56,456 nt of DNA, taken from IMG/VR virus record IMGVR_UViG_3300042995_000016, positions 1 through 56,456 of that record; one strand, given 5' to 3'. A model generated the notes under the pieces. That model did not search any database. It had not been told where the DNA came from and was given only the letters and a program-made list of their open reading frames with translations. This DNA is from a virus. A program made the position numbers and the translations under genes. Position 1 is the stretch's first letter; each line of letters starts with the position of its first letter. Shown in pieces: positions 7,001 through 54,438 of this stretch.

Positions 7001-10000
7001 CAGGCGGCCCTCGGCGGGGCGTTCCGCATCTGCTGGAACTCCCGCCGCAGCGCCACCAGCTCGTCACGCAGCATCGCGAAGCCGTCCACGTTGACCGCCG
7101 TCTGAGTCTTGATGGCGCTCTCCACCAGCCGGCCCGGGTCGAACTGCCCGACCCGGTCGAGGACGTCGGCCACCCGGTTGAACGCCTCCGCGAAGCCCCG
7201 CCCGCTCCCGTACTGCGCCCGGGCCCCGCGCAGGTAGAGCTCGGAGTAGGCCTGGAGCTGGGCGAGGCTGTTGAAGTCGCCCGCCAGCGCCGCCCCCGAC
7301 ACCGCGTTGAACCGGCTCTCCGCCAGGCCGAACGCCGTCTCGGGGGCGAGCGCCGACAGATCCGAGAACGGCAGCGCCGCCGCGAACTGCCTCAAGCCCC
7401 CGACCACGCCGAGCGCCGCCTGCTGGCCGAGGGCGTCCTTCTGCGCCTGCTCGGCGTTCCGGACGGCCGCGATCTCCTTGTCGCGCGCCGCCACCAGCTT
7501 CTCGGTCGCCAGCCCCAGCTCCTGCGCCTTCTTGACCTGCGCGTCCCAGGTCTTCGTGATGTCGCGGACCGCCTTCTCCGCATCCGTCATGCCGGAGGTG
7601 AACTCCTCCCACCACTGCGCGAACTCAAGGTCGGAGGAGAGCGAGGCCACGTCCTTGGCCTTGGACGAGGCCAGCACGCGGCCGACCGTACCCGTGCCCG
7701 AGATGGCGCCCGAGGCCAGGATCGATCCCAGCAGCGCCGCCGGGTCGTCCGTGCCCCGGCTCCCCCAGGGGTTGCCGTTGCCCGAGTAGAGCCCGCCGAA
7801 GGGCATGCGCGAGGCATTGATCGACAGCCCGTAGGCGTCGACGAGCGCGTTGAGCTGCGCCGCCATCGCCTGCGTCTGCTCGACCAAGGGCCCCGCGTTG
7901 CCATCGTTGTCGGTGGATACGCCGAGCCCGCCGGCGAAGCGGCCGCCCTCGATCCCCACCGCGGAGGTGGCGATCGGGCCGACCGACGCCTTCTGCGTGC
8001 CGAACATCCCGCCGGCGCCGCCCGCGAGGCCGCCGATCACCGCGCCCACCGGGCCGCCGACGAGGAAGCCCACGCCCGCCCCGACCGCGGCGCCCGACAC
8101 GCCGCCGACCGCCTTGCTGTTGGTGCGGGTCCCCAGGTAGCCGCCGACCAGCGAGCCGGCCGCGAACCCGCCTGCCGCCGGCCCCAGGTACGCGGTGAAG
8201 GGCGTGCCGGCGTAGCCCACCGACTGGCCCGCCACCGCCGCGTTGCCCACGCCGCCCGGCACCGAGGCCACCCCGAGGGAGGAGGCGAGCCCGCCCGAGG
8301 CGGAGGTCATCTGCGTGATCGGGGCCGCGAACGTGCCCGGGAAGGCCGAGGCCGCCCAGCCGTTCACGGTGGTGCCGACCCCGCCGAAGAGCCGCCCGAA
8401 GTCCATCGGGGAGCCGATGCCGCCCCCACCCATCCCGAAGAGGCCCCCGCCCGAGGAGGCCGCAGCCGAGCCGCCGCCGGGCGCGCCAAAGCTCCACAGC
8501 GTCGGCAGGTTCGAGCCGAGCGCCGCGTTCTTCAGCGGGTTCAGCAGCGTCCAACGCGCGGCCGTGGTCAGCAACTCGGCCCCGAAGCCGCGCAGGACCG
8601 CCGTGAGGTCCAGGATGCCGTTCTTGCCCTGGACGGCGCCCTCTATCAGGGCATCGAACGCCCGGTCGCCGAGCTGCGCCGCCTCCTGGAGCGCGCTGTT
8701 GTAGCGCTCGACCGCGCGCTCGTTGTCGACCATCTCCTCGGCCGCGCGGGCGATGTTCTTGCGCTCGTCGTCGGACAGCGAGCCCAGCTTCTCCCGGCGC
8801 CGCTCCTCGAGCTCCATCTGCTTGAGGCGCACCGCCCGCGACCGCTCGTCCAGGCCCGAGATCGCAACCAGCTCGCCAGAGCGCTTCACCTCGTCTTCGA
8901 GGCTCCGGTTCAGCGCGTCCCGGTCCCGGATGAAGTCCTGGGCGCGCTTGGACGCGGCGGCGCGGGCCTGTTCCTCGTCCTTGGCCGCGTCCGTGGCCGC
9001 CGCGTTGATCGCGCGGTTGCGCTGCCGAAGCTCCTCGGCCTCGCGCTTCGCCGCCGCCGCCGCCCTGTCGCTGGCCTTGGCGTTCGCCTCGATCTTGTCG
9101 ATGGCCCGCTGGCGCGCGACCGCCTCCTCGATCAGGGCGCGCGTGGCCGCGTCGACCTGCTGGTACTCGGCGACGCCTGCGACCTTCATGGCCTCGGAAC
9201 GGAGCTTGGCCTCCAGCTTGGCGGCGTTGCTTCGGTCCTGCGCGTCCACCTGGAAGCCGAGGTCGGCGATCTGCTGGCGCAGGTTCTCGCGCAGCCCCTT
9301 GAGCGCATCCGTGTAGCCGCCGGCCGCCGCCCGCGCCCCGTCCGTGCTCGCCTGGACGGCACGCGCCCCGTCATTGTACTCGCCGAACTTGCCGCGAAGG
9401 ACGTCCAGCTCGAGTCGGAGCGCCCGGAACCGCTTCTCCGCCTCCTCGACCTGGGCCGCATAGCCGCTGTCGGCCAGCGAGCCGGCTTCGCCGAACACGC
9501 CCATGGGCTGGTTCATGCGCGCGGCCTGCGCCGCGACCAGGTCGGCCTCGGCCTTGTCGAGCGCCGCCTGCTTGGCGGCGATCACGTTGCTCCGTTGCGC
9601 CTCCAATGCGCGCGACTGCGCCCCCGTCGCGCGGGTGAGCTCGTCGCTCGCCTTGCCGGCGAGGTCCAGCGCCTTCGCGTAGTCGGTGTACGCGGTCTTG
9701 GAATTCTCGGCCTCGCCGCCCGCCTTGGACACCGCCAAGCCGAGGGCACCGACCACGGTGACCGCCGCGCCCAGGACGGCGCCCCAGGGGCCGAAGGCGC
9801 CGAGGAGCTGCCCGGCCTGCACCGTCAGGGCCTGCATCGCGCTCCCGCCGGACGCGATCTGCGTGGCGACGTCGCCGACCTGGAAGCCGACCTGCTGCAG
9901 CGCGCCGCGGAGGTTGTTGTTGGCCGCCTCGTGCTTGCCGGCCGCGACGACCGTCTGGCCATGCTGCTGCTGCAGGCGCTGCATCATGGCGGCGTGCTGC

Positions 10001-33253: not shown

Positions 33254-34228
33254 TCACTCCGCCGCGACCTGGTCGAGCCGGTCGAGCAGCGTGCCCGCGG
33301 CTGCCGCGGCCTCGGCGTCGGCGAGGTGCCGGGCCGCGAGGCGGAAGTACTCGGGCTTCAGCTCGAACCCCACGAAGCGGCAGCCGTTCGCGAGCGCCAC
33401 GGTCCCCTCGGACCCGATGCCGCCGAAGGGGCTGAGCACCACGTCGCCCGGCCGCGACCAGACCCGCATGGCCCTCCGCGTGATGTTGAGCGGCATCGGG
33501 CACAGGTGCTTCTCGTCCCGGTCGGAGCGCGCGACCTTGACGTTGAGGACGTCGGTCTCCGGCAGGTCCTCCGAGGGGTAGTTCCACACCGGCGATATCG
33601 CGCCGTTCGTCGGCCACACGGGGGACGCCAGCCGCTGCCACTCCGCGACGGGGAAGCCCTCCGCGGTGTGGCCGATCCTGACCGCCTTCGCCCGCTCCTC
33701 CTCCGTCGTCGCCCACTTCCGGTACACCATCAGGTACTCGGGCAGGCCGGTGCGGCTGAACGAGCTGTCCTCCTTGATCGTCCGCCAGAGGAGCCCGTGC
33801 GCCTTGGTCTTCTGCATCTCGCGCACCGGGTCGCGCGCGATCGTGACGCGGCAGTGGAAGTCCCAGCCCTCCTCGACGTGGATCTTCGTGCAGAGGTCGG
33901 AGAAGGGCCGCAGGCCCGCCGTGCCGCGGGGCGAGCTGTTCTGGTAGTAGACGAGGTCCTTGACGTGGATCGCGGTCAGGCGCCCCGGCCGGGTCACCCT
34001 GAACTTCTCGCGCACGGCGTGGCGGTACTGCTCGGCGAACTCCTCGTCCGAGGCGACGTTGCCCATGTCGGCGACGCTCTCCGAGTAGATGTAGAGCGAG
34101 CTGAACGGCGGGCTGTAGACGCTGAAGTCGACGCTGTCCGCCGGCAGCGCGGCCATGCCCGGCACGCAGTCGGCGTGGTAGAGCGACCATCCGGCCCCGT
34201 GGGCCTGGTCGAGCACGAATCCGCTCAT
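33254..34228 (-). CDS. DNA methyltransferase (N4-cytosine or N6-adenine), SPPF type
   Basis: A 324-residue beta-class amino-methyltransferase. Motif IV SPPF is at 39-42 (VDFSVYSPPFSS) near the N-terminus, and the SAM-binding motif I is near the C-terminus (VLSPFGGIGSEGTVA, followed by GCRFVGFELKPEYFRLA). The order IV then I defines the beta class. SPPF favours N4-cytosine but does not exclude N6-adenine. The target domain lies between (PVWPTNGAISPVWNYPSEDL). Starts by ATGA overlap with the SNF2 helicase stop. Confidence 0.88.
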   Translation of the reverse strand: MSGFVLDQAHGAGWSLYHADCVPGMAALPADSVDFSVYSPPFSSLYIYSESVADMGNVASDEEFAEQYRHAVREKFRVTRPGRLTAIHVKDLVYYQNSSPRGTAGLRPFSDLCTKIHVEEGWDFHCRVTIARDPVREMQKTKAHGLLWRTIKEDSSFSRTGLPEYLMVYRKWATTEEERAKAVRIGHTAEGFPVAEWQRLASPVWPTNGAISPVWNYPSEDLPETDVLNVKVARSDRDEKHLCPMPLNITRRAMRVWSRPGDVVLSPFGGIGSEGTVALANGCRFVGFELKPEYFRLAARHLADAEAAAAAGTLLDRLDQVAAE

Positions 34229-35625
34229 GCGGCGCTCCTGATCCAGGACGGCAGCCGCATCGGCGCCGTCGGGTTGTAGTCGAGGCGGGTGGACCGGCGC
34301 TCCGCCGAGCGCCGCATGGCCGCGGCCATCTCCCGCCGCATGGCGTCGTGGCCGTCCTGCTTGCGCGACAGCGCCGCGCGGACGTGCTGCTCGGTGTCCG
34401 CGAGCACCGCGTGGGCCCGGACCGGCCGGAGCTGGCCGAAGCGCCAGAAGCGGCGCAGGGCCTGGTAGAAGGCCTCGTAGGAGAAGTTCACGCCCGCGAA
34501 GGCGGTGCGCGCGCAGTGCTGCCAGTTGAGGCCGAACCCGGCGATCGAGGGCTTGGTGACGATCACGCGGTGCGTGCCGTCGGCGAAGCCCAGGAGCCCC
34601 GCCTCCTTGCGCGCCTCCGGCATGGAGCCGCGCACCTCCGCGACCCCGCCGGGAGCGCCGGCGAGGAGCGCCATGACGGCGTCGGCCTCGTAGTCCGTGT
34701 CGACCCAGACGCACCACGGCTCGCCCGGCTCCGCGTGGACGAGCTCCGCGACGACGCGGGCCCGGTCCTCGGCCGTGATGCGCTTCTCCCGGTGGATGTC
34801 GGTGGCGCTCGCCCCCGGCAGGCGGAAGAGCGTGTCGCCGCGGTCCCGCAGGATGTCGGCGCGCACCGTGTGCCAGCGCAGGTCGAGCGGCGGCAGGTCG
34901 TAGCCGTCGTCGGGGAAGCCGAGGTCCGAGGGCCGCGACACGCAGCGCGCCCAGCTCGCGACCCAGCTCCAGAACGGCGCGACGGCGTGGCCCTTCAGGC
35001 GGTAGCGGCCCATCTCCGCCTGGTCGGTCACGAAGAACCGCGACAGCATCTCGGCCGAGGGCATGACGCCCAGGAAGGCGGAGTGCTGGCCGAGCTCGGT
35101 GTGGTCGTTGGGCGCCGGCGTCGCGGTGCAGGCGAGCCGGAACGGGATCCCGGCGCCGAAGGCGACCAGGCGGCGAGAGTAGACGCCCGTGAAGGTCTTG
35201 AGGATGGAGGACTCGTCGAGCACGACCCCGCCCAGGTCCTCGGGCCGGAAGTGCGGGAGCTTCTCGTAGTTCGCGAGGTTGACCCCGGGCGCGAGCTCGT
35301 CGGCGGAGCGGACGACCCTGGCCGGGATGCCCCAGCGCTCGGCCTCGCGGCGGTGCTGCGGGGCGACGGCGAGCGGCGAGAGCATCAGCACCGGCCGGCC
35401 GGTGCGCTCGGCGACCACCCTGCCCCACTCCAGCGCGCTGAACGACTTGCCGAGGCCGGTGTCCATGAACTCGGCCGAGCGTCCGGCGCGGAGCGCGAAC
35501 TCGGTGACGTGGCGCTGGTGGGGCTTGAGGTCGGGGTGGAGCTCGGGGACGTCCTCCATCCCCGCGGGCGGCGCCTCGAGGACCTTGCGGGCCAGCAGCG
35601 CCTCGTAGCCGGCGAGGTCGGTCAT
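34225..35625 (-). CDS. SNF2-like DEAD/DEAH helicase
   Basis: A 466-residue SF2 ATPase. ATG 35625 (MTDLAGYEALL) overlaps the upstream stop. Motifs: Q-like LKPHQRHVTEFAL (33-45), Walker A MDTGLGKS (54-61), Ia LSPLAVAPQH, Walker B VVLDESSILK with DESS in place of DEAH (137-140), III CTATPAPND. C-terminal helicase motifs include GFGLNWQHC and FYQALRRFWRFGQ. Compact phage SNF2 proteins of this form often accompany VRR-NUC nucleases. Likely acts in replication fork remodelling or recombination. Confidence 0.88.
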   Translation of the reverse strand: MTDLAGYEALLARKVLEAPPAGMEDVPELHPDLKPHQRHVTEFALRAGRSAEFMDTGLGKSFSALEWGRVVAERTGRPVLMLSPLAVAPQHRREAERWGIPARVVRSADELAPGVNLANYEKLPHFRPEDLGGVVLDESSILKTFTGVYSRRLVAFGAGIPFRLACTATPAPNDHTELGQHSAFLGVMPSAEMLSRFFVTDQAEMGRYRLKGHAVAPFWSWVASWARCVSRPSDLGFPDDGYDLPPLDLRWHTVRADILRDRGDTLFRLPGASATDIHREKRITAEDRARVVAELVHAEPGEPWCVWVDTDYEADAVMALLAGAPGGVAEVRGSMPEARKEAGLLGFADGTHRVIVTKPSIAGFGLNWQHCARTAFAGVNFSYEAFYQALRRFWRFGQLRPVRAHAVLADTEQHVRAALSRKQDGHDAMRREMAAAMRRSAERRSTRLDYNPTAPMRLPSWIRSAA

Positions 35626-37100
35626 GCGGACCTCCGCTCGGCCGCCGCGTTGAGCGATTCGTAGTAGCCCTGGTCGAACAGCGACGGCCCGGGCCCGCGG
35701 CGCGCGCCGAGGTGGCGCGCCGACATCATGTGGTCGACCCACCCCTTCTTGTAGCCGCGCTCGGCCGCGATGCGCTCCAGGTCCTCGCGGGTCTTCGCGG
35801 CGCCGACCTCGCGCCGGAGCGCCTGGGCGCGCTCGGCCTTCTCCCTCGCGGCCTCGACCTCCTGGAGCTCGCCCTCGCGCTCCTCGGGCTGGCGCGCCTC
35901 GGCCTGGTAGGCGTGGCCGCAAGCCGGGCACACGGGCGCCGGTCTATGGGCCGTGTAGCAGGTCGGGCACTGCCTGACCCGCACCTGGGGCTCGGCGAGG
36001 ACGTCGCCCTTCCTGCGCTTCGGCGCGCCCTGCAGCGACCACTCGCGCGGCTCGTCCGGCAGGCCGTGGCGCGCCGTGTTGCCGACGTGGTCGACGACGA
36101 TGGCGAAGTCCTTGCCCTCGGCCGGGCGGAGCGCGCGGCCGACCTGCTGGATGTGGAGCGCGAGCGACTGGGTCGGGCGGAGCAGGATCACCGCGTCGAC
36201 GCCGGGGACGTCGAAGCCCTCGGAGATCAGCGAGCAGTTGGTCAGAACGGACAGCTCGCCGCGCTCGAAGGACGCCAGGACGCGCTTGAGCTGCGCCCCG
36301 TCCATCTCGCCGTCGACGTGGGCGGCGGGCACGCCGTGGGCCCGGAACTCGGCCGCGACGTGCTCGGCGTGCTGGATGCTGACGCAGAACGCGATCGCCC
36401 TCTTGCCGCCGGCGAGCTTGCGGTAGTGCTCGACGACGCTGCCCGTGATCGCGGCCTTGTCGACGCGCTTCTCGACCTCGCCGACGGCGTAGTCTCCCAT
36501 GCGGGTCTTCACCCCGCTGAGGTCGATGTCGGTCGGCGGCGCGAACACCCTGGCCGGGACCAGGAACCCCATGTCCGTGAGCTCGGCGACGCTCGGCGCC
36601 TCGACCAGGCGCTCGAAGCACCCGCCGTGCCCCTTGCCCAGGCCCGCGCCGTCCAGGCGCAGCGGCGAGGCCGTGACGCCGAGGATGCGGGTGTCCGCCA
36701 GGGCCTGGGCGAGCGCGACGTAGCTGGCGCTGACGCCGTGGTGCGCCTCGTCCCAGATCATGAGCTTGGGCGGCGGCAGCTTGCCCAGCCGCTTGACCAG
36801 CGTCTGCACGGTCGCGACCTGGACCAGCGCGTTGGGGCGCGGCGCGAAGCCCGAGGCGACGACGCCGTGGTCGATCCCCCATTCGTGGAGCTTGCCCGAG
36901 ACCTGCGCGAGCAGGACGCGCGAGGGCTCGACGATCCAGACCGAGTTGCCGCGCGCCGAGGCGCCCGAGGCGATGCGCCCGAAGGTGGGCGTCTTGCCCG
37001 CGCCGGTCGGCGCGACGAAGAGCACGGCCCGGGCGCCGGCCGCGAACTCGCGACGGACGCCCTCGACGCCGGCCTCCTGGTAGGGTCTGAGCGTCAGCAC
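35622..37100 (-). CDS. DEAD/DEAH-box helicase with zinc finger
   Basis: A 492-residue SF2 helicase of the type III restriction/UvrB-like branch. Motifs: LRPYQEAGVEGVRREF (Q), APTGAGKTPTF (Walker A, K36), MIWDEAHHG (117-120 DEAH), GVTASPLRLDG (III), then LTNCSLISEGFDVPG (V) and HIQQVGRALRP (VI). Residues near 365-385 hold a four-Cys zinc finger (CPTC...CPAC). A coiled coil follows (LQEVEAAREKAERAQAL). With the SNF2 gene it makes two helicases in tandem, coupled by a 4-base overlap. Confidence 0.9.
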   Translation of the reverse strand: MLTLRPYQEAGVEGVRREFAAGARAVLFVAPTGAGKTPTFGRIASGASARGNSVWIVEPSRVLLAQVSGKLHEWGIDHGVVASGFAPRPNALVQVATVQTLVKRLGKLPPPKLMIWDEAHHGVSASYVALAQALADTRILGVTASPLRLDGAGLGKGHGGCFERLVEAPSVAELTDMGFLVPARVFAPPTDIDLSGVKTRMGDYAVGEVEKRVDKAAITGSVVEHYRKLAGGKRAIAFCVSIQHAEHVAAEFRAHGVPAAHVDGEMDGAQLKRVLASFERGELSVLTNCSLISEGFDVPGVDAVILLRPTQSLALHIQQVGRALRPAEGKDFAIVVDHVGNTARHGLPDEPREWSLQGAPKRRKGDVLAEPQVRVRQCPTCYTAHRPAPVCPACGHAYQAEARQPEEREGELQEVEAAREKAERAQALRREVGAAKTREDLERIAAERGYKKGWVDHMMSARHLGARRGPGPSLFDQGYYESLNAAAERRSA

Positions 37101-37363
37101 GGCGCGGCCTCCGTCGAGGCGAGGCGGCGCAGGTCGCGGGCGCCCATACCGAGCTTGAGCCGCACGGCCGCGAGGTGGGCGCTGACGGTGTGCGTCGAGA
37201 TGCCGAGGGCCCGCGCGACCCCCTTGTAGCTCTCGCCGCCGGCGATCAGCTCGGCGCAGCGCCGCTGCGCGGGGGTGAGGGTCGAGACGTCGAGCCCGCC
37301 GGGCCCGGCGTCGGCGGCGCGGCGCAGCTCGTCGAGCTCGCCGCGGGACAGGATCACGCCCAT
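37094..37363 (-). CDS. LuxR-type helix-turn-helix regulator, small
   Basis: An 89-residue protein. ATG 37363 overlaps the previous stop (TGATG). Residues 28-85 are a complete LuxR/GerE HTH: LTPAQRRCAELIAGGESYKG, VARALGISTHTVSAHLAAVR, LKLGMGARDL. There is no receiver or ligand domain, so it probably acts as a constitutive or partner-dependent DNA-binding protein. It overlaps the helicase start downstream and could control phage late genes. Confidence 0.85.
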   Translation of the reverse strand: MGVILSRGELDELRRAADAGPGGLDVSTLTPAQRRCAELIAGGESYKGVARALGISTHTVSAHLAAVRLKLGMGARDLRRLASTEAAPC

Positions 37364-37734
37364 CAGGGGGACTCCTTCGGTCGGAAGGCGCGGGCCAGGC
37401 GCTCGGTCTCGCGGGCCCGGCGGACCGCCGCCGCGCCGACGGGCGGCACCCACGCGACGCCGTGGTGGTGGCCGCAGTAGGACGAGCCGGGCCGCTGGGG
37501 TGCCTGGCAGTAGCCCCAGGCGCCGGACCGCACGTCGCCGTCGATCCAGCGGCAGCCGACCGGCTCGCGCGGGCCCGGGGCGGGCGGCGCGGCGACGGAA
37601 GCCGGGACCTGGACCGCGGCCAGCAGCCGGGCGACGCTCGTGCCGAACCACCCGGCCACGGTCGAGGGACGCGCGCCCCGGCCGAGGTGGTGGCGGGCGG
37701 TGTCGAGGTCCTCGGGCGAGAGCGCGGCGCCCAT
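37363..37734 (-). CDS. GcrA-like zinc-motif protein
   Basis: A 123-residue protein starting at ATG 37734 (TGATG overlap). Residues 1-42 may be a degenerate helix-turn-helix (RPSTVAGWFGTSVARLLAAV). Residues 60-95 (GCRWIDGDVRSGAWGYCQAP, then GSSYCGHHHGVAW) match the C-terminal pattern of GcrA, the alphaproteobacterial cell-cycle regulator that binds sigma70 at methylated GANTC promoters. That pattern is C61, C76, C87 and H89/H90. A phage GcrA mimic could redirect host transcription. The family call rests on the Cys/His pattern. Confidence 0.65.
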   Translation of the reverse strand: MGAALSPEDLDTARHHLGRGARPSTVAGWFGTSVARLLAAVQVPASVAAPPAPGPREPVGCRWIDGDVRSGAWGYCQAPQRPGSSYCGHHHGVAWVPPVGAAAVRRARETERLARAFRPKESP

Positions 37735-37922
37735 CAGGCCGCCTCCCCGCGCGCCCGGTAGAGCCGGCACGCCGCGTGGTAGTCGCCCCAGCCCTCGGCC
37801 CAGGCCCAGCCCGAGTCGGTGTCCGGGACGTAGGGATTGGCGGAGCGGTCCTCGCCGCGCGAGGCGGCCTCGACGCCCTCCCGGTAGGCGGGGATCCTGC
37901 GCGGGTTCGGGGCCGGCGTCAT
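37734..37922 (-). CDS. Ribosome-modulation-factor/CrpP-like small protein
   Basis: A 62-residue protein. AYREGVEAASRGEDRSANPY followed by SGWAWAEGWGDYHAA matches the RMF/CrpP plan 'G..a...G.....nPY......W..GW', a tiny two-helix domain. RMF dimerises ribosomes in stationary phase, but phage and plasmid members have unrelated or unknown roles. ATG 37922 overlaps the upstream stop. Resemblance is by pattern only. Confidence 0.6.
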   Translation of the reverse strand: MTPAPNPRRIPAYREGVEAASRGEDRSANPYVPDTDSGWAWAEGWGDYHAACRLYRARGEAA

Positions 37923-38425
37923 CCCGCGGTCCCCCGGGCGGAGGGGTGCGCCACGACCCCGGCGCCGCCGTGGGGCGGCTCCACCATGTCCCGGATGGCC
38001 CGGGCGTTGTCGATGACGTCCTGCGCCTCGCGGGCGATGCGCCGGCGGTCGCGGGCGTCGAGCGCGTCGTCGGCCATGGCCTTGTCGACCTCGCCGTTGA
38101 GTTCGCCGACCTCGCGGGCGAGCGAGCGCAGGCACCGGTCGATGTCCGCGGCGGGCGTGGGCGCGCCGCGCAGCCTCGCCAGCGTCGCCTGCGCGATCTC
38201 CTGCAGCGCCGGGGCGAAGACGGGGCTCAGCCCGCGGGCGACCAGCGCCGCGTCCAGCGCGGCGGCGTCGGGCAGGTCGAGCCCGTAGTCGTTCGACGGG
38301 TTGCAGATCTTGGCGAACGTCGCCGCGCGCTTGCCGGTCGCGGCGAGGATCTCGTCCGGGGAGAGCTGGTTGAGGACGTCGCGGAGCTTGTCCTCGATGG
38401 ACCCGGCGGGGCGATGAAGCGTCAT
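37919..38425 (-). CDS. Phage regulatory protein, CII-like
   Basis: A 168-residue helical protein, first gene of the leftward early operon after a palindrome. The N-terminal half (SIEDKLRDVLNQLSPDEILA, ATGKRAATFAKICNPSNDYG, LPDAAALDAALVARG) resembles the HTH region of phage CII/CP76-like regulators. The C-terminal half is a long charged helix (RSLAREVGELNGEVDKAMAD) suited to oligomerisation. It probably binds DNA near its own promoter. Medium confidence. Confidence 0.6.
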   Translation of the reverse strand: MTLHRPAGSIEDKLRDVLNQLSPDEILAATGKRAATFAKICNPSNDYGLDLPDAAALDAALVARGLSPVFAPALQEIAQATLARLRGAPTPAADIDRCLRSLAREVGELNGEVDKAMADDALDARDRRRIAREAQDVIDNARAIRDMVEPPHGGAGVVAHPSARGTAG

Positions 38426-38435
38426 CCAAAATACC

Positions 38436-38452
38436 CCTATCGATTGGATAGG
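38436..38452. promoter_or_regulatory. 17-bp palindrome before leftward regulator gene
   Basis: CCTATC (38436-38441) and GATAGG (38447-38452) are perfect inverted repeats with a 5-base spacer, 11 bases upstream of ATG 38425. Likely an operator. It differs from the TGTACC operators further right, so a different protein would bind. Confidence 0.6.
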
Positions 38453-38823
38453 ACGTGGGGGACGGCCTCGTCCACACTCGGGCCCAGCAGGACGGGCGAG
38501 GGGGCGAGGCGGTGATCGAGGCGGGCGAGGACGAGGTCGGGGCCAGGCTGGCGCTGCTGCGCTCGATCGCGGGGATCGGGGCCGAGCGACAGGACGGCGG
38601 AGACCGCCGCGCCGCCCAGGACCAAGCCGCCCAGGCCGGCCGAGGCGAGCAGGACGCCGACGCCGAAGGTGGTGCGCCGTACCGCGACGGAGAGCCGGAT
38701 GCACACCGATGCGCGCGGGACGCGGGCAGGCCCGGCGGCGTAGGCTTCCTTGACAGTCTGGTTATGGTGGGAGTCTTGCGTCTTGGTCAGGGCGGGCACG
38801 GAGAGGGGCGGCCGGCGGGGCAT
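38437..38823 (-). CDS. Putative single-pass membrane protein
   Basis: A 128-residue ORF from ATG 38823. A basic N-terminal half is followed by one strong transmembrane segment (FGVGVLLASAGLGGLVLGGA) and a Pro/Arg-rich tail. Its end overlaps the palindrome at 38436-38452. The hydrophobic segment is convincing, the tail less so; the ORF could be shorter or absent. Confidence 0.4.
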   Translation of the reverse strand: MPRRPPLSVPALTKTQDSHHNQTVKEAYAAGPARVPRASVCIRLSVAVRRTTFGVGVLLASAGLGGLVLGGAAVSAVLSLGPDPRDRAQQRQPGPDLVLARLDHRLAPSPVLLGPSVDEAVPHVLSNR

Positions 38824-39713: not shown

Positions 39714-39941
39714 TCAGGCCGCGGACTTGGCGAAGTGCTCGACCAAATCGGGCCGAAGTTCGCTGGCACTGACCGCGCCGCCGAAGGCACGGATCACCTC
39801 AGGGATTTCCTCGGCCGGCAGGGTTATTTCCGCGCCCCATTTCTTGATGGTGTTTCGCGGGCGCTTCAGGCGCCGCGCCAACTCGGCGAGGGTGATCCCG
39901 TGCTTCCGGCAGAGCTGAGTGAGGGGGCGTGCGTTTCGCAT
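39714..39941 (-). CDS. cro: Cro-like helix-turn-helix repressor
   Basis: A 75-residue protein from ATG 39941. Residues 5-35 form an HTH (LTQLCRKHGITLAELARRLK, then RPRNTIKKWGAE), YdaS/Cro-type, followed by an acidic dimer arm (IPEVIRAFGGAVSASELRPD). It is divergent from the XRE-type repressor at 40049 and starts 10 bases downstream of an operator that overlaps its promoter. First gene of the leftward early transcript. Confidence 0.85.
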   Translation of the reverse strand: MRNARPLTQLCRKHGITLAELARRLKRPRNTIKKWGAEITLPAEEIPEVIRAFGGAVSASELRPDLVEHFAKSAA

Positions 39942-39948
39942 GCCCACG

Positions 39949-39977
39949 TTTGTACCACCACATGGTACAGGATGCAA
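39949..39977 (-). promoter_or_regulatory. cro promoter with embedded operator O1
   Basis: Minus-strand TTGCAT (39977-39972), 17 bases, TACAAA (39954-39949). The operator TGTACCA-N5-TGGTACA (39951-39969) fills the spacer and overlaps the -10 box, so a bound repressor would block RNA polymerase. Confidence 0.75.
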
Positions 39978-40021
39978 TGACGTTGATCGGAGAATCGGAC
40001 CATATGAAGGTCCTGCCGAAA

Positions 40022-40040
40022 TGTACCATCGTTAGGTACA
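40022..40040. promoter_or_regulatory. Operator O2 upstream of cI
   Basis: TGTACC-N7-GGTACA, the same 19-bp layout as O1, 8 bases before the cI start codon at 40049. Suited to autoregulation of the repressor. Confidence 0.75.
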
Positions 40041-40048
40041 TTCGGCCC

Positions 40049-40393
40049 ATGTCTAAGCAGGCTGGAACAACGAAGACCAAGAGCCGACTGGCCGGGCTGC
40101 GCGCGAGGCGCAAGCTCACCCAGGAGCAGCTTGGCGAGATGATTGGCGCGAACCGCGAGAAGATCGCGAAACTGGAGCGCGGCGATATCTGGTACTCGCT
40201 CGACAGCGCAACTCAGATATCACGAGCCCTGAACTGCGGCATGTGGGAGCTAATGCCGGATGCTCCGGATCTTACCCAAGACGACCTCCGCATTTTGGCC
40301 GCGCTGCACCGGATGAACGAAGACCAGAAGATGCAGTTCCTGACTTTGTTGGAGACTTTGCTAAACGGGGCGGCGCCCGACCGTCAGCAATAG
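40049..40393 (+). CDS. cI: CI-like XRE repressor
   Basis: A 114-residue protein from ATG 40049. Residues 13-70 are an XRE/Cro-CI HTH (RLAGLRARRKLTQEQLGEMI, GANREKIAKLERGDIWYSLD, then TQISRALNCGMWELMP). The C-terminal 35 residues are a short helix that could dimerise. There is no LexA-like self-cleaving peptidase domain, so induction would need a route other than RecA-stimulated autocleavage. Divergent from cro across two operators; lower GC than most of the prophage. Confidence 0.85.
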   Translation: MSKQAGTTKTKSRLAGLRARRKLTQEQLGEMIGANREKIAKLERGDIWYSLDSATQISRALNCGMWELMPDAPDLTQDDLRILAALHRMNEDQKMQFLTLLETLLNGAAPDRQQ

Positions 40394-40484
40394 CCTCTGC
40401 GGCATCGGCCAGTAGGCTGCGCATCGCGGGGGGGACTGCACGAACAAGCGTCAGCCAAGCTCTATCTTCATCGGACAGCCCCAT
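40272..40484 (-). CDS. Doubtful small ORF antisense to cI end
   Basis: A 70-codon ORF whose first part (LSDEDRAWLTLVRAVPPAMR, SLLADAAEAIADG) looks like genuine helices. The second half is antisense to the 3' end of cI and is low-complexity. It may be a remnant of a gene truncated by the arrival of the immunity region. Low confidence. Confidence 0.25.
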   Translation of the reverse strand: MGLSDEDRAWLTLVRAVPPAMRSLLADAAEAIADGRAPPRLAKSPTKSGTASSGLRSSGAARPKCGGRLG

Positions 40485-40496
40485 CGCGCCCCCCAT

Positions 40497-40621
40497 CGCG
40501 CCAGCCTAGCAACCAGAACATAATCGGAACATCTCGCCTCGTCACGCACATCGGTGCATGCGCTTGATGCATCAGCATTGAGGAGCACCCCGGCTCACCG
40601 GCGCGGGCCGGGGCGCCACTG
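40497..40621. terminator. Intergenic spacer with GC hairpin
   Basis: CCCCGGC (40588-40594) pairs with GCCGGGG (40607-40613), downstream of the leftward gene ending at 40622. It may end that transcript before it meets cI. No T-tract. The rest of the spacer shows nothing. Confidence 0.35.
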
Positions 40622-41059
40622 TCACGCGGCCCTCAGGCTGAGCGCGCACATCGCCGCCTGTCTAGCGGCCAACGCGCACATCGCCGCTCCCTTGCAAGCG
40701 CCCCGTGGCGCGTCCTTGTAGTTGGACACCAACTCGACGCCGTGCTCGGCGAAGGCGGCCCTTGTGACCTGCCATGCCTCGGCGAACGCCGCCGTGCCAT
40801 AGGCGTTCGCGTCGTGATAGAGCTCGACGCCGCCCATTGCCGCGGACACCTGGGCCAGCAGTTTGGGATCCTCGATCACTATATGCAGCGCCGCGTCGGC
40901 CGCCTCGGTCATCGCGAGCGTGGCGGACGGGTTCCGCGCAAGATGATCGAGCAGCGCGCTCATGTCGCCCACAGCAACCTCGGCCTGCTCGGGCGCGAGC
41001 CCGCCAGCGACCAAGCCGGCGACGACACCAGAAAAGTCGAGTCCCATCACTCCCTGCAT
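40622..41059 (-). CDS. Hypothetical helical protein
   Basis: A 145-residue protein (start 41059, or ATG 41047). It is Ala-rich and helical (VAGLVAGGLAPEQAEVAVGD, HLARNPSATLAMTEAADAAL). At its C-terminus CKGAAMCALAARQAAMCALS repeats an AAMCAL unit twice. Downstream of the PAS-LuxR gene and probably co-transcribed. Family unknown. Confidence 0.58.
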   Translation of the reverse strand: MQGVMGLDFSGVVAGLVAGGLAPEQAEVAVGDMSALLDHLARNPSATLAMTEAADAALHIVIEDPKLLAQVSAAMGGVELYHDANAYGTAAFAEAWQVTRAAFAEHGVELVSNYKDAPRGACKGAAMCALAARQAAMCALSLRAA

Positions 41060-41071
41060 GTCAGCCTCTCC

Positions 41072-42127
41072 TCATTGGCGCGTCAGCGACGCGCGTGTTA
41101 TCGCCGCGATCCTCATGACCAGGCTCGTGATGTCGCCCAGCCCGGCGGCGGCGAATCCCGACCGACGCAGCCGCGCCTTGATGCCCTTGACTTGGTTGTA
41201 GGCTGTTCCTGGATCTACGCTCCGCGCGTCCGCGATCTCCCGGACCGAGAGGCCGGCGCCCAAGAGCGCTGTGACGTGGGCCTCGGCGGGCGTGAGGTCG
41301 AAGGTCCGCCCGAGGGCACTGCGGATCTCCTCCTGGTCCTCTCCGAAGGCGGCGACGGCTAGGACGGCCGTACCGGCGGATGCACCGGGCGAGACCGCGA
41401 GCAGGTGGGGGTCCCCGGCGCCCGGACGGCGCAGGGGAACGATGGCCGGCTCCTTGCGCCCGGCGCAGGCCGCGAGGACCGCCTGGGCCAGAACGATGTG
41501 GTCATATCTGTCGGCGGCGCGGATGCCGTCCTCAGTCTCGAGGATCCCGTCGCCCCGCTCGGCCAGCAGCCGGAACGCGGCGTTGGCGTGGATCAAGCGC
41601 TTGGCTTGGTCGACTAATCCCACGGCGAGGCCGACGGCGTCCAGCGCCGACTGCAGCCCTCGAAACGCTTCGCTGATCTTGGATGCCCACACGACGCCGA
41701 GCCAGTTTTGCGCGCCGTCGAAGTACCGCTCCATTCCTGTCGCCTTGACCGCGACGCGCGCCTGCATCGACATGCCACCGTCGAGGCGCAGGTGGGAGAC
41801 CAGCATGCGTCCCGCGGGATAGACGTTGATAAAATCCATATCGGTATGCCGACGGGCACAGCTCGCCGTCTCGGCGTAGAGACGCGGGTTCTCGGCGGCA
41901 AGGGGGTTGCCGTTGAAGCCGTGGCGCACCAGAGCATAGATCAGGTCTTTGTAGGTGTCCTCCGGCCTGAACTGGAAGCAAGGCCACTGTTCACGTTGTT
42001 CTTGATTAGCCCAGAGGACACGATCCTCGGCATCGAAAATGACGATACCTCCGCCGAGGCTAGCAGCGGCCTCCGCAAGCTCGCGCCCCCGATGCGGCAG
42101 TCCTTGTAGTGCAAATGAACTACGCAT
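41072..42127 (-). CDS. PAS-LuxR transcriptional regulator
   Basis: A 351-residue regulator. Residues 15-130 are a PAS-like sensor (GGGIVIFDAEDRVLWANQEQ, later GRMLVSHLRLDGGMSMQARV). Residues 150-270 form a second PAS-like region (ALDAVGLAVGLVDQAKRLIH, ANAAFRLLAERGDGI). The C-terminal LuxR HTH (LTPAEAHVTALLGAGLSVRE, IADARSVDPGTAYNQVKGIK) completes it. Its GC is markedly lower than neighbouring phage genes. It could sense a host metabolite and affect the lysogeny decision, or be cargo. Starts next to a palindrome-bearing promoter. Confidence 0.8.
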   Translation of the reverse strand: MRSSFALQGLPHRGRELAEAAASLGGGIVIFDAEDRVLWANQEQREQWPCFQFRPEDTYKDLIYALVRHGFNGNPLAAENPRLYAETASCARRHTDMDFINVYPAGRMLVSHLRLDGGMSMQARVAVKATGMERYFDGAQNWLGVVWASKISEAFRGLQSALDAVGLAVGLVDQAKRLIHANAAFRLLAERGDGILETEDGIRAADRYDHIVLAQAVLAACAGRKEPAIVPLRRPGAGDPHLLAVSPGASAGTAVLAVAAFGEDQEEIRSALGRTFDLTPAEAHVTALLGAGLSVREIADARSVDPGTAYNQVKGIKARLRRSGFAAAGLGDITSLVMRIAAITRASLTRQ

Positions 42128-42163
42128 GCTTTTCAGCCGTGATCGTCAGCGATTAGCTGCCCA

Positions 42164-42192
42164 TATCCAACCTTGGACACCTTTCGGTGTCA
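42164..42192 (-). promoter_or_regulatory. PAS-LuxR gene promoter with internal palindrome
   Basis: Minus strand: perfect TTGACA at 42192-42187, 17 bases, TTGGAT at 42169-42164. Between them GACACC-tttc-GGTGTC (42175-42190) is a perfect inverted repeat overlapping the -35 box. GAATATATTC (42194-42203) is a second palindrome just upstream. Suggests autoregulation. Confidence 0.55.
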
Positions 42193-42423
42193 ATGAATAT
42201 ATTCTTGCGCTAGCAATGATGCACGAGAAGCAAAGTCGCATTGTTGCGCACGCGCCGCGCTTCCCCAGATGCAAAGACCTCGCCGGCCGGAGCGGGTGGG
42301 ACTGCCTGGGGTAGATCTGTTCATAGGCGAGCACGACGCCGACTCAGATCGCGGCGAGCACTGCGGCGCTCATGAAGCCGACGACTGTCCATATCTGAGT
42401 ATGACATGGATGGCAAACAGTCG

Positions 42424-42442
42424 TGTACCACTTCAAGGTACA
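42424..42442. promoter_or_regulatory. Operator O3 (TGTACC-N7-GGTACA)
   Basis: Same 19-bp layout as O1 and O2, 2.4 kb away from them. Lies upstream of the rightward early operon beginning at 42578. Confidence 0.75.
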
Positions 42443-42450
42443 TTATTCGC

Positions 42451-42479
42451 TTGCACTGACGTACCATCACGCGGTACAT
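42451..42479 (+). promoter_or_regulatory. Rightward early promoter with operator O4
   Basis: TTGCAC (42451-42456) is followed after 17-18 bases by GTACATT. The fourth palindrome CGTACC-N7-GGTACA (42460-42478) lies across the spacer and -10, exactly as O1 does in the cro promoter. Confidence 0.6.
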
Positions 42480-42577
42480 TTTTCCTGCACCGACCGATGG
42501 GGCTACCCCACGACGGCGCTTCCTCCCAACTAGACCGGGGTGCCTGGCGCCCCGGTCGCCTCCCGAGGGCCGGGTCC

Positions 42578-43327
42578 ATGTCGTCAGAGTCAGAGAACCC
42601 CATCGCCGATCCCGTCGTCACCGAGGCGAGCGCGGGCGCCTTCGTCTCGCTGCTCCAGGGGGATCGCGCGATCAACGCCTTCGCCGCCGGCGCGCTCGGG
42701 GCGGGCAGTCTCCTCACCGCCTCGGACGAGGCCGTCGCCGCGCTGCTGCGCGCCGTCGCCGACCGGCTGGCGCCGTCCGTCACCCCCGAGACCGTCGCGG
42801 CCGAGGTCGCCGAGGTCGCGACGGGCCGCTGGTTCCACAGGAAGGCCAACGGCACGCGCCCAGAGGGCTGGTTCGCCGTCGCGAACGTCGAGATCGAGTA
42901 CAGGCATGACCTCGGCTCGACGCCGTGGCGCTTCGAGTTCTGGTCCGAAGAATGCGCGGTGAGGAGCGTCCATGCCGCCACGCTCCCCGAGCTGCGCGCC
43001 GAGGCGCTGGAGGCCGCCGCCGCGATGCCGGCGGAGCGCCCCGAGCCCGAGGCCCCGGCCGAGCGGCCCGCCGCGCCCGGGCTCGACGGCGGCACCCTCG
43101 TCTGCGTGACGGTCGGCGAGGACGGCCACGCCCGCGACGACGGCTACGGCCGCGTCGTCCCGCTCCGGGACTTCCTCGCCGACAACTTCGACGGCCTCTC
43201 CGCCGCCGAGGTGACCGAGCTGCACTCCGCGCTGGGCCGCCGCGAGCCCTGGCGCCACGGCGGCGGCGCCGCGCCGCTCGTCACCGTCACCCTCGCCGCG
43301 GCGGTCGACGCCGCCGAGGTCGCCTGA
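42578..43327 (+). CDS. First gene of rightward early operon, unknown
   Basis: A 249-residue acidic protein from ATG 42578. An Ala-rich helical N-terminus (AGAFVSLLQGDRAINAFAAG, VAALLRAVADRLA) is followed by a strand domain with many aromatics (GRWFHRKANGTRPEGWFAVA, WRFEFWSEECAVRSVHAA). A Pro/Glu-rich linker (about 150-170) leads to a C-terminal acidic domain. It is directly under the O3/O4-controlled promoter. Family unknown. Confidence 0.68.
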   Translation: MSSESENPIADPVVTEASAGAFVSLLQGDRAINAFAAGALGAGSLLTASDEAVAALLRAVADRLAPSVTPETVAAEVAEVATGRWFHRKANGTRPEGWFAVANVEIEYRHDLGSTPWRFEFWSEECAVRSVHAATLPELRAEALEAAAAMPAERPEPEAPAERPAAPGLDGGTLVCVTVGEDGHARDDGYGRVVPLRDFLADNFDGLSAAEVTELHSALGRREPWRHGGGAAPLVTVTLAAAVDAAEVA

Positions 43328-50034: not shown

Positions 50035-50910
50035 ATGCCCGACGGCTCCCTCTCCCCGGAACTCCTCCGGGACCGCCACGGCATCGGCGGCAACATGCCG
50101 CCCGAGCCGATCGAGCTCCTCCGCGCCACGCTCGCCGATCTGACCGGTGCCGATCGCGCCCGCGTCGTCTCGGCCGCTCACCAGATCCTGCTCGATGCCG
50201 CGACCCAGGACGATCCCGAGCGCGCCGCGACCCGCGCCCGCCTCGAGGCCGCCTGCGCGAAGTGGGACAAGGAGCGCCCGGAGATCCTCGACGACGACCA
50301 GCTGGCCAAGGCCGGAAACGTCGTCCGGCTCCTCACCGACGCCGTCAACGCGGAGGAGAAGGCCCGGACCGGGGCCAAGCGCCCGTACATCGACGGCGGG
50401 CGCGCGATCGACGGCGCCTTCAAGGTGCGCCTCGCCCCGATCGAGGGCGGCAAGGCGCGCATGACGGCCCGCATCTCCCGATACCAGGCCAAGGTCGCGG
50501 CCGAGCGGCGCGCCGCCGCGGCCGAGGCGCACCGGCAGGCGGAGGCCGCCGCCCAGGCCGCCCGCGACCTGGAGCGCCAGCAGCGGGAGGTCCAGGCCGC
50601 CGCCGCGCAGGGCGCGCCCGTGGACGCGGCGCAGCTCGCGGCCGACGCCGCCGCGGCCGAGGACCTGCGCCGGCGGCAGGCCGAGGCGCAGCAGCAGGCC
50701 GCGGCGCTCGCGACCAAGCCCGAGGTCCGCTCCGACCACGGCGTGCTGGTCACGTCCAAGGTCGTGAAGCGGCTCCAGGTCGACGACGAAAGCCTGATCC
50801 CGGACGAGTTCTGGGAGGTCAACTGGCACAAGGTCCGGCTCGCCCTCGACACCGGCCGGGAGATCCCCGGCGCCCGCCTCGTGGACGAACCGATCCCGCT
50901 CGTCCGCTGA
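50035..50910 (+). CDS. RecT-associated coiled-coil protein
   Basis: A 291-residue protein starting 2 bases after the previous stop. Long Ala/Arg/Gln/Glu coiled coil from about 150 to 220 (ERRAAAAEAHRQAEAAAQAA, LRRRQAEAQQQAAALA). It ends in a small conserved domain (SDHGVLVTSKVVKRLQVDDE, IPDEFWEVNWHKVRLALDTG). Proteins of this plan are regularly coded just before RecT-type annealases, so a recombination accessory role is likely. Confidence 0.68.
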   Translation: MPDGSLSPELLRDRHGIGGNMPPEPIELLRATLADLTGADRARVVSAAHQILLDAATQDDPERAATRARLEAACAKWDKERPEILDDDQLAKAGNVVRLLTDAVNAEEKARTGAKRPYIDGGRAIDGAFKVRLAPIEGGKARMTARISRYQAKVAAERRAAAAEAHRQAEAAAQAARDLERQQREVQAAAAQGAPVDAAQLAADAAAAEDLRRRQAEAQQQAAALATKPEVRSDHGVLVTSKVVKRLQVDDESLIPDEFWEVNWHKVRLALDTGREIPGARLVDEPIPLVR

Positions 50911-50948
50911 CCGCCCGCCCCAGCCACCACCACAGCCAGGAACCCACG

Positions 50949-52202
50949 ATGCCCGACACCTCCCTGCCCGCCCTCGCCGGCGTCGGCGCCGACCAGCTCC
51001 GGTCGGCCCTGCCGGCCGTGGCGATGCCCAGCATGCTCGCCGACGCGGCCCGCTTCGAGTTCGGCCAGCGCGTCGCCAACCTCTTCGCGAACAGCCAGCT
51101 CGTGCCGGCGCACCTCCGCGGCAAGACGGCCGACTGCTTCATCGCCCTGCACATGGCGGAGCGCCTCAACGAGGACCCGCTCGTGGTGATGCAGAACATC
51201 AACATCATCAACGGCCGGGCCGGCTGGTCCGCGCAGTACATGATCGGCCGGGCGAACCGCAGCGGCGTCTTCCGCGGCCGCATCTCCTGGCGCTCGACCG
51301 GCGCAGGGGACGCGCTCCAGGTGACCGCGCACGCGGTCCTGGCGGACGCGGGCGAGGAGGTCACGGCCACGGCCTCGATGGCGATGGCTAAGGCCGAGGG
51401 CTGGACGAAGAACCAGAAGTACCAGTCCATGCCCGAGCACATGCTCCGGTACCGCTCCGCGACGATGCTGATCAGGCTCTACGCGCCGGAGGTCATGCTC
51501 GGGATCCCGAGCAGCGACGAGCTGGAGGACGTCCAGTACACGGTCGTGCAGGACGCGCCCCCGCCGCCCTCGCGGGCCGCCCACGGCCTGTCCTCGGTGC
51601 CGGCCCCGACCTCGGCTCCGGCCGCGCCCCAGTCTGCGCCTCAGGCAGCGCCCTCGCCAGTGATCGACAACGGCCCCGCGTTCGACGGCGATGCGGACGG
51701 CGCGGACTACGAGATCGTGACCAGCGAGGGCCAGGTCCTCGACTTCCACGCCGGCACCGAGACGAACGTCCGCGAGGGGATGTTCGTCGAACTGCGCAAC
51801 GGCGCGCGCCGCGGCCGCGCCGACCTCGACGGCGTGTGGGAGACCAACGCGGCCGTGCTGGACGAGCTCGACCGACGCGGCCACGGGGTCGTCGCGGAGG
51901 AGATCCGGGCGGAGTACCGGCGGCTCGTGACCGTGCTCGAGCGCCAGGCCACGCAGACGCCCGAGGCGGCGCAGCAGGCCGCCCAGCAGCCCGCGGCCCA
52001 GGCGACCCAGGCGGCGCCCGCGGCCGGGCGCAAGCGACAGCCGCCCGCGGCCGCGGAGCCGCCCCCGCCGGCCTCGGCCGAGCCGCCCCCGCCTCCGCCC
52101 CCTCCGCCCGTCGCGCAGCAGCCCGCGGTCGCGATCCCGACGGAGCCCCCTCCCCCGCCGCCACCCCCGGCCGACGGTGGCGGCGCCGACGACCTGTTCT
52201 GA
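50949..52202 (+). CDS. recT: RecT-like single-strand annealing protein with SSB-like tail
   Basis: A 417-residue protein. Residues 30-200 form the RecT-like core (FIALHMAERLNEDPLVVMQN, INIINGRAGWSAQYMIGRAN, EGWTKNQKYQSMPEHMLRYR, SATMLIRLYAPEVMLGI). A middle strand domain (about 245-300) follows. The last 80 residues are Pro/Gln/Ala-rich with Pro runs and end GGGADDLF, similar to the acidic hydrophobic tip of SSB proteins. It would pair single strands during phage recombination; the tip may recruit SSB-binding host enzymes. Confidence 0.85.
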   Translation: MPDTSLPALAGVGADQLRSALPAVAMPSMLADAARFEFGQRVANLFANSQLVPAHLRGKTADCFIALHMAERLNEDPLVVMQNINIINGRAGWSAQYMIGRANRSGVFRGRISWRSTGAGDALQVTAHAVLADAGEEVTATASMAMAKAEGWTKNQKYQSMPEHMLRYRSATMLIRLYAPEVMLGIPSSDELEDVQYTVVQDAPPPPSRAAHGLSSVPAPTSAPAAPQSAPQAAPSPVIDNGPAFDGDADGADYEIVTSEGQVLDFHAGTETNVREGMFVELRNGARRGRADLDGVWETNAAVLDELDRRGHGVVAEEIRAEYRRLVTVLERQATQTPEAAQQAAQQPAAQATQAAPAAGRKRQPPAAAEPPPPASAEPPPPPPPPPVAQQPAVAIPTEPPPPPPPPADGGGADDLF

Positions 52203-52904: not shown

Positions 52905-53377
52905 TGCCGGACGCCGGCCACCACCCCGCGCCGCTCCTGACGCTCGAGGAGGCCCGCCTGGTGATCCACCCGGGCGGCGCCGTCACCCTGCACGCCCTCA
53001 AGCAGGCGTTCCGCGACGGCCGCTTGCGCGGGGTCAGGATCGGCCACACCATCCTCGTCTCCCCGGAGGAGGTCGAGCGCTTCAAGTCCAACCCCGCCGG
53101 CGCGCGCCGCGCCGCCAGAGGCCAGCCCGCATGCCCCGCGCCAACCCAGGACCCCGCCTCCGCCTCTTCGGGCCCGACGACCGATTCGGGGCCAAGCGCC
53201 GAGGCGGCTTCGCCGACTACGTCTGGTACATCGTCTGGACCGAATCCGGGGTCCGCCGGGAGCGGAGCACTGGCGCGGGCAAGGATGACCGCCGAAAGGC
53301 TGAAGAGGAGCTCGCCCGCTTCCTCGACGCCCGGGCCCCGCGGGTCGTCGGGCCGCGTCATCCCCATGAGATCCTGA
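52904..53377 (+). CDS. xis: Excisionase-like protein overlapping integrase
   Basis: A 157-residue ORF. Residues 10-65 are a MerR-like excisionase HTH (LLTLEEARLVIHPGGAVTLH, ALKQAFRDGRLRGVRIGHTI, LVSPEEVERF). From residue about 76 the frame overlaps the integrase gene by 247 bases and encodes a Ser/Pro/Gly-rich tail that is probably disordered. The functional excisionase is therefore the first 70 residues; the tail length is unusual but the frame stays open. Confidence 0.75.
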   Translation: MPDAGHHPAPLLTLEEARLVIHPGGAVTLHALKQAFRDGRLRGVRIGHTILVSPEEVERFKSNPAGARRAARGQPACPAPTQDPASASSGPTTDSGPSAEAASPTTSGTSSGPNPGSAGSGALARARMTAERLKRSSPASSTPGPRGSSGRVIPMRS

Positions 53378-54438
53378 TCGCCGACGTCCTGGACCTCTAC
53401 GGGACAGAGCACGCGCCGAACGCCACGGACGCCGCCCGCATCGGCCACGCGATCGCGGCGCTGCTGCCCTGGTGGGGCGAGCGCACGGCCTCGACGATCA
53501 CGCTCGAGACGTGCCGGGCCTACTTCCGCCACCGGTCGGCGCAGCTCGCGAAGAAGGAGGCGGAGCAGGCCGAGCGCCGAGCGGCGCGCGCCACGGCGAA
53601 GGCGCGGCGGCTGCACCCCAAGGCCCCCGAGGCGAAGCGGGACAGGACGCGCTCGGAGCTCTCGGCGCCCTCGGACTTCGACAGGGCGGGCAGGGTCTGC
53701 CACCACAACACCGTTCGTCGCGAGCTCGGCGCGCTCCAGGCGGCGCTCGGCTACTGCCACGCCGCCGGCGTCCTGCTGAACCCGCCCGTCGTGTCGCTGC
53801 CGAGCAAGCCGGAGGCCCGTCAGGACTGGCTCGACCGCGACGAACTGGCGCGCCTGCTCCGCGCCGCCCGGCGCGAGCCGAAGGCGAGGGGGCACCTGCC
53901 CTACATCATCCTGATCAGCTACTACACGGCCCACCGCAGGGAAGCCGTCCTGGCCCTGCAGTGGCACCCGAACACCGAGGGCGGGCACGTCGACCTGAGG
54001 CGCGGCCTGATCGACTTCAACCCGATCGGCCGTCCCCGGACGCGCAAGCGGCGCCAGGCGGCCATGCCGATCCCGCCGCGGCTGCTGCCCCGGCTGCTCC
54101 ACCTGCGCCGCACGACCAGGCGGTTCGTGATCGAGGCCGAGCGCCCGGAGGTGGTCGACGGCGAGGTGCGGATGGTCCGCGGCCGCGTGCGCAGCTACAA
54201 GCGCTCGCTGGCCACCGCCGTGCGGGCGGCGGGGCTGACCGGCAAGCGGATCACGCCCCACGTCTTCAAGCACACCGGGATCACCCACCTGATGCAGGAC
54301 GGCGTCGACCCCTGGGCGGTCTCGGGGTTCACGGCGACGTCGATAGAGACCATACAGAAGGTCTACGGGCACCAGCACCCGGACTACCTGCGCGAGGCCG
54401 CGGCGGCGCCCCGCGGCAAGGGAAGGAGCCGCCGGTAG
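53131..54438 (+). CDS. int: Tyrosine recombinase (phage integrase)
   Basis: A 435-residue integrase. N-terminal arm- and core-binding regions (1-230) include a charged helix insertion at 136-175. The catalytic domain has R269 in the TAHRREAVLAL box, H377 and K380 in TPHVFKHT (Lys where most family members have Arg), H414 in YGHQHPDYL and nucleophile Y419. It integrates the prophage into tRNA-Pro(CGG), as shown by the tRNA 3' fragment 520 bases downstream. Start ATG 53131 lies inside the excisionase frame. Confidence 0.93.
   Translation: MPRANPGPRLRLFGPDDRFGAKRRGGFADYVWYIVWTESGVRRERSTGAGKDDRRKAEEELARFLDARAPRVVGPRHPHEILIADVLDLYGTEHAPNATDAARIGHAIAALLPWWGERTASTITLETCRAYFRHRSAQLAKKEAEQAERRAARATAKARRLHPKAPEAKRDRTRSELSAPSDFDRAGRVCHHNTVRRELGALQAALGYCHAAGVLLNPPVVSLPSKPEARQDWLDRDELARLLRAARREPKARGHLPYIILISYYTAHRREAVLALQWHPNTEGGHVDLRRGLIDFNPIGRPRTRKRRQAAMPIPPRLLPRLLHLRRTTRRFVIEAERPEVVDGEVRMVRGRVRSYKRSLATAVRAAGLTGKRITPHVFKHTGITHLMQDGVDPWAVSGFTATSIETIQKVYGHQHPDYLREAAAAPRGKGRSRR

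Follow-up and report, generated by a model that had tools for sequence, protein, structure and literature searches.

Palindromic operators common to two divergent early promoters point to a lambda-type immunity region with a short repressor in a temperate phage

Genes and features of the locus

The window, by which we mean the whole stretch of DNA analysed, is an IMG/VR virus record in its entirety, with 56,456 bases and 73% G+C. It belongs to a temperate phage whose host is probably an alphaproteobacterium, and the nearest relatives of its PAS-LuxR protein are in Azospirillum. The region examined here is built around divergent cro and cI genes, with a PAS-LuxR gene between cI and the distal rightward operon (Table 1).

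Table 1. Features of the proposed immunity region and of the operons flanking it, by position in the window
Feature	Coordinates	Strand	Basis and remarks
Helicase genes, P_R-type operon	34225..37100	-	PHROG 16 and 62
CII-like regulator, cro (P_R-type) operon	37919..38704	-	PF06892, 29.7 bits, above cut-off; PHROG 101
Cro-like 75-aa HTH protein, YdaS/Cro family	39714..39941	-	PF15943; PDB 3bd1; 54% to L056 Cro
Putative O_R site, cro side	39951..39969	.	exact palindrome; fills cro promoter spacer; 19/19 identical to L056 8293
Putative weak middle O_R site, CGGACCATATGAAGGTCCT	39996..40014	.	full PWM; counterparts in L056 and phage Cd (3642)
Putative O_R site, cI side	40022..40040	.	exact palindrome; overlaps cI -10 TACATT (40037-40042), promoter read by eye
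CI-like 114-aa repressor without S24 domain	40049..40393	+	HTH_3; RstR-family profile below cut-off
Small ORF convergent with cI, overlapping its 3' end	40272..40496	-	L056 homologue in the same place; candidate SOS-induced antirepressor
LexA-type SOS box, GTTCCGATTATGTTC	40516..40530	-	exact GTTC-N7-GTTC; local-shuffle rate 0.0006
145-aa protein, second cargo gene between O_R and O_L	40622..41059	-	41-42% to phage Cd gp03; no family match
PAS-LuxR type regulator, cargo gene in the O_R-O_L interval	41072..42127	-	45% to phage Cd gp02 over its length
Palindrome TGTCCAAGGTTGGATATG 5' of PAS-LuxR	42162..42179	-	16/18 identical in phage Cd; not a repressor operator
Putative O_L site, 5' of P_L -35	42424..42442	.	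exact palindrome
Putative O_L site	42460..42478	.	one mismatch; fills rightward promoter spacer
First P_L-type operon gene	42497..43327	+	start 42497 or 42578; ORF list; no family match
Exonuclease / Gam-like / Gp157-like gene, P_L operon	50035..50910	+	PHROG 10477 and 253; weak Gp157
ORF with RecT-like segment (~51294-51533), start not fixed	50262..52202	+	PF03837, 23.8 bits, cut-off 24
Tyrosine integrase, end of P_L-type operon	53131..54438	+	PHROG 1, E=1.3e-34; PF00589

We found that the Cro-like protein passes the gathering cut-off of PF15943 (30.9 vs 30 bits; 38.0 bits for the Cro of contig L056), and that, among solved structures, it comes closest to the Cro of Xylella prophage Xfaso 1, both in sequence and in predicted fold. 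For the CI-like protein the best named family is RstR (NF041951), which is matched over nearly the full length at 45.3 bits against a cut-off of 80, and membership is therefore not assigned. Profile scans found no S24 peptidase/oligomerisation domain in this CI or in that of L056, and found one in each of six S24-type CIs scanned. A single-sequence AlphaFold model of the CI alone was poor (pLDDT 48), and its PADLOC matches were set aside as generic HTH. Searches of viral contigs with single proteins (CI, Cro, the first P_L gene and PAS-LuxR) returned no relevant kin, and a CI scan of genome contigs reached distant gut bacteria only. The preliminary description had placed the start of the rightward operon at 42578, to which we add an in-frame ATG at 42497 as an alternative. 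The cro operon also encodes a second protein with a LuxR-type (GerE) HTH (37094-37651, minus strand).

A 19-bp palindrome recurs at the two promoters

The palindrome TGTACC-N7-GGTACA occurs exactly at 39951, 40022 and 42424, and with one mismatch at 42460; our motif scan bore out all four sites as first described, in position and in mismatches. When up to one mismatch is allowed, these are the only copies in 56 kb, and 100 dinucleotide shuffles gave 0, the opposite of the random frequency elsewhere in the prophage that had been named in advance as refuting the idea. Within two mismatches the window still has just the four sites, and background sets in only at three (6 matches vs 4.9 expected). 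Using a PWM built from the sites, the four score 25-33 bits and the next best position in 56 kb 8.4 bits; upon leaving out each site in turn, no non-site scored above the omitted one. That next best position is CGGACCATATGAAGGTCCT at 39996, between the 39951 and 40022 sites, and we add it as a fifth, weak site, so that the original four stand and the total becomes five. With an arms-only model, in which the spacer is ignored, 39996 drops out of the window's best matches, and its assignment thus depends on spacer bases and on conserved position.

Reading the promoters by eye, we place that of cro on the minus strand at TTGCAT (39977-39972)-17-TACAAA (39954-39949) and the rightward one at TTGCAC (42451-42456)-18-TACATT (42475-42480). 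The spacer separating -35 from -10 is occupied at each of them by the palindrome, which also shares 4 nt with the -10; this geometry confirms the arrangement proposed earlier for these two promoters. The cI promoter is covered as well, the 40022 site overlapping a TACATT that lies 6 nt before the cI ATG; cI and cro are both probably leaderless. A generic sigma-70 scan did not flag these by-eye promoters of the window, which match the consensus weakly, and did flag the equivalent pair in Azospirillum phage Cd.

Related operators in other viral contigs

We scanned viral contigs for paired GTACC-N7-GGTAC and obtained 36 contigs, in eight of which (L026, L030, L038, L042, L047, L050, L053 and L056) the sites are grouped in two clusters, one on each side of cI. 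The closest is L056, with 54% identity in Cro, 34% in CI (over the HTH) and a CI that is likewise short (123 aa). Its first operator, at 8293, is identical to the window's 39951 site in all 19 bases, its O_R offsets are 0/46/72 vs 0/45/71 in the window, and the O_L spacing is 36 in both; a weak middle O_R site is also present (46/26 spacing vs 45/26). The seven other contigs have repressors of the S24 type; Pfam detects S24 in each of the six that were scanned, and L038 was assigned by reading its sequence. In these seven the O_R and O_L sites rank top under the arms-only model trained on the window, and in four a third O_R site lies 24 bp further on. Where aligned, the S24-type CIs keep R36, K41, L42 and E43 of the window CI's recognition-helix region invariant at 26-34% identity, whereas the Cros, where aligned, are only 15-26% identical to the window Cro. 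Since the motif is kept alongside such distant Cros, the operator appears to follow CI, with Cro probably binding as well; which of the two proteins binds is something we infer from the co-occurrence of protein and operator. The S24-type cI of L038 (7357-8165, minus strand) lies in two overlapping frames, by frameshift or sequencing error.

Two further contigs with the exact motif, L005 and L006, were rejected as carriers of immunity operators, their copies forming iteron-like arrays in or beside replication genes. Four copies lie just after a replication-type gene in L005 (3367-3454), and four lie inside an ORF of L006 (10012-10192), where they correspond to the repeated peptide NVPEKGT. No recurring palindromes turned up in the Cro candidates L059-L061.

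The same architecture in Azospirillum phage Cd

Through a search with PAS-LuxR we arrived at Azospirillum plasmid p5 and at phage Cd (NC_010355), and contig L023 proved to be phage Cd again. Its gene order is that of the window: P_L operators, PAS-LuxR (45%), small protein (42%), cI, O_R and cro, the two cargo genes thus lying between the distal promoter and cI/cro, and a LexA box accompanies an ORF convergent to cI. Phage Cd differs in its operator sequence, repressor and Cro, in an extra EamA gene and in an O_L-O_R distance of 3.7 kb. Its operator cores ACGYGAWAMRCGT, at 3617 and 3668 and at 62235 and 62259, belong to a motif unrelated to the window's and fill the same promoter spots (TTGACG-17-TATGGT for cro, TTGACG-18-TATGGT for P_L). 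The four sites score 20-27 bits with their own PWM, and the next position in 62 kb scores 10.1 bits and falls mid-O_R, at 3642, as in the window. By BLASTP, the phage Cd repressor and Cro are not alignable with the window's and show no recognisable homology; what phage Cd shows is a common architecture, not a common protein. Both operator groups have changed jointly between the two phages, as a shared repressor predicts. The phage Cd record annotates no such operator sites. Beside the P_L operators, a 37-bp unit, GGCAGGGTGTCGCTAAAGCCAATCTTTGCGACACCCT, occurs as a tandem duplicate in plasmid p5 (L017 3654-3727) and singly in the phage Cd contig.

Upon comparing the upstream regions of the two PAS-LuxR genes, we observe that their best local match is TGTCCAA-NN-TTGGATATG, found 5' of both (window 42162-42179, minus strand; L017 4843-4860, plus strand) and a candidate autoregulatory box of PAS-LuxR. 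On plasmid AZO_p1 of A. lipoferum 4B (L018 4556-7438), EamA and PAS-LuxR are accompanied by a ~147-aa homologue of the small protein, and no cI or cro was seen near them; the cargo cassette thus exists outside intact phage too.

A probable single repressor switch and the alternatives to it

The divergent cro and cI genes have operators common to both between them, the same operators are repeated at P_L, whose operon includes Gp157-like, RecT and integrase genes, and the cro operon carries CII and replication-type genes (PF06892, helicases). Because this gene content follows lambda's division between P_R and P_L, we assign the distal pair of sites as O_L. Judged from its sequence, this is an immunity region of lambda type that combines five operators with a short repressor and is of a kind already known. 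It very probably holds one repressor switch that controls a pair of divergent early promoters, separated by 2.4 kb, through lambda-type O_R and O_L, and the comparisons with L056, the seven S24-CI contigs and phage Cd lend strong support to the single switch put forward in the preliminary description. The short CI-family repressor, and probably Cro too, would bind five related 19-bp sites, with O_R made up of strong 39951, weak 39996 and strong 40022, and O_L of 42424 and 42460 at the distal rightward promoter. Seated between -35 and -10, the repressor would silence the cro (P_R-type) and rightward (P_L-type) operons together, and through the 40022 site it would restrain its own promoter. The PAS-LuxR and 145-aa genes would be cargo between O_R and O_L, like rex in lambda.

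The same operators and proteins could also work the way lambda does, through an O_L-O_R loop that CI secures and that encloses the PAS-LuxR cassette. The paired operators at each end and a spacing of 2.4 kb, close to lambda's ~2.3 kb, are what such a loop would use, but the window and L056 repressors are without the S24/C-terminal oligomerisation domain, the O_L-O_R distance varies from ~0.7 to 3.7 kb among relatives and the cargo between the operators varies by phage. Looping had been suggested at the outset; we found no support for it of its own and consider it distinctly unlikely. It is also conceivable that the sites are mainly Cro operators, with the 114-aa repressor working elsewhere or needing a partner, given that L056 and the window share an identical first operator and 54% of Cro and only 34% of CI over the HTH. 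This we judge quite improbable, for the S24-type phages keep GTACC-N7-GGTAC together with the invariant CI helix residues despite their dissimilar Cros, and one strong site sits on the cI promoter.

A role of the palindromes as RNA hairpins (attenuators) or replication iterons is highly improbable: the sites fall between the -35 and -10 elements, ahead of the transcripts, they stand at both ends of the immunity region without forming an evenly spaced array, and phage Cd has different motifs in the same places, even though 42461-42477 with the T's that follow was flagged as terminator-like and L005 and L006 do have palindrome arrays in or beside replication genes. Finally, the position of the PAS-LuxR gene between the two pairs of sites might suggest that its product binds them and regulates both promoters. 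That gene has a conserved palindrome of its own (TGTCCAA-NN-TTGGATATG), no homologue was noticed in the L056 and S24-type immunity regions with the same operators, and the phage Cd homologue coexists with a different operator, all of which make regulation by PAS-LuxR extremely improbable.

Relation to known systems

The proposed repressor switch resembles that of lambda in its divergent cro and cI, its three O_R sites, a second operator group ~2.3-2.4 kb away at P_L with cargo in between, and the division of recombination and integrase genes to P_L and of CII and replication-type genes to P_R. It differs in having two O_L sites where lambda has three, a 114-aa S24-less repressor, a YdaS-family Cro, cI and cro genes that are apparently leaderless, and PAS-LuxR with the 145-aa protein as cargo in place of lambda's rexAB. 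Another alphaproteobacterial phage, Rhizobium phage 16-3, has paired left and right operators, oL1, oL2, oR1 and oR2, for one repressor, according to the citation of that work in PMC12429752; the likeness is drawn from that citation. The RstR family of CTXphi (NF041951) has a short XRE repressor like the window CI, which scores below the family cut-off and belongs to a different phage type. Together with its relatives, the window brings about nine more phages into the group that has lambda-type operator pairs, and exact operator sequences are now given for testing, including the unannotated ones of Azospirillum phage Cd.

A LexA-type box and a possible route to induction

In lambda CI, the S24 domain serves both oligomerisation (octamers) and self-cleavage. 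Because the window repressor is without this domain, it should not be RecA-cleavable as lambda CI is, and induction is more likely to proceed via LexA release. The alphaproteobacterial LexA motif is GTTC-N7-GTTC (PMC3323433), and we presume that it also holds in the window's host. Three exact copies are found in the window against 0.8 expected, one of them, at 40516-40530, 20 bp upstream of the small ORF (40496-40272) that converges on cI. L056 has a homologous ORF in the same place (BLASTP E=1e-7), with an SOS box at one mismatch, which is chance level for that locus. At the phage Cd locus there is only one box (L017 6712-6726), 28 bp upstream of the ORF convergent with cI (shuffle rate 0.0052), and no exact LexA box comes closer than 700 bp to cI in any of the seven contigs with S24-type repressors.

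LexA leaving the 40516 box would turn on the small convergent ORF, for which we propose an antirepressor role; this induction step is a tentative one, and we lean slightly against it. Likeness between the small protein and the CI tail, in the window and L056, was significant in three of four comparisons (p 0.0007-0.015; the fourth 0.28), all of them post hoc, on segments picked after the likeness had been seen. A further likeness of the CI tail to the small ORF, in DGRAPPR, was discarded as an artefact of antisense overlap, and the small-ORF segments compared end before it. A fuller version, in which the small ORF, induced by SOS, would encode an antirepressor able to imitate the C-terminal helices of CI and disrupt its dimers, with the PAS-LuxR sensor as a second input from the same interval, we regard as unlikely.

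Comparable repressors are known from the prophages Gifsy-1, -2 and -3 (GfoR, GtgR and GfhR), which are non-cleavable and are countered by LexA-controlled antirepressors (PMC3121763). Like these, the window combines a lambda-like phage with a small repressor that has no cleavage domain (114 aa, HTH only), and by analogy the SOS-antirepressor route is proposed here. In Gifsy the antirepressor genes are located beyond the immunity region, whereas the candidate of the window converges on cI and overlaps with the 3' end of that gene. If the fuller version given above is true, alphaproteobacterial phages would have a variety of the Gifsy mechanism housed in the immunity region. The presence of a box by a convergent ORF in the window and phage Cd, both S24-less, against its absence near cI in the S24-type relatives, would predict how phages replace self-cleavage. 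In L017, the phage Cd ORF at 6754-7020 (plus strand) is unannotated, lies behind a GTTC-N4-GTTC-N7-GTTC run and overlaps the 3' end of cI.
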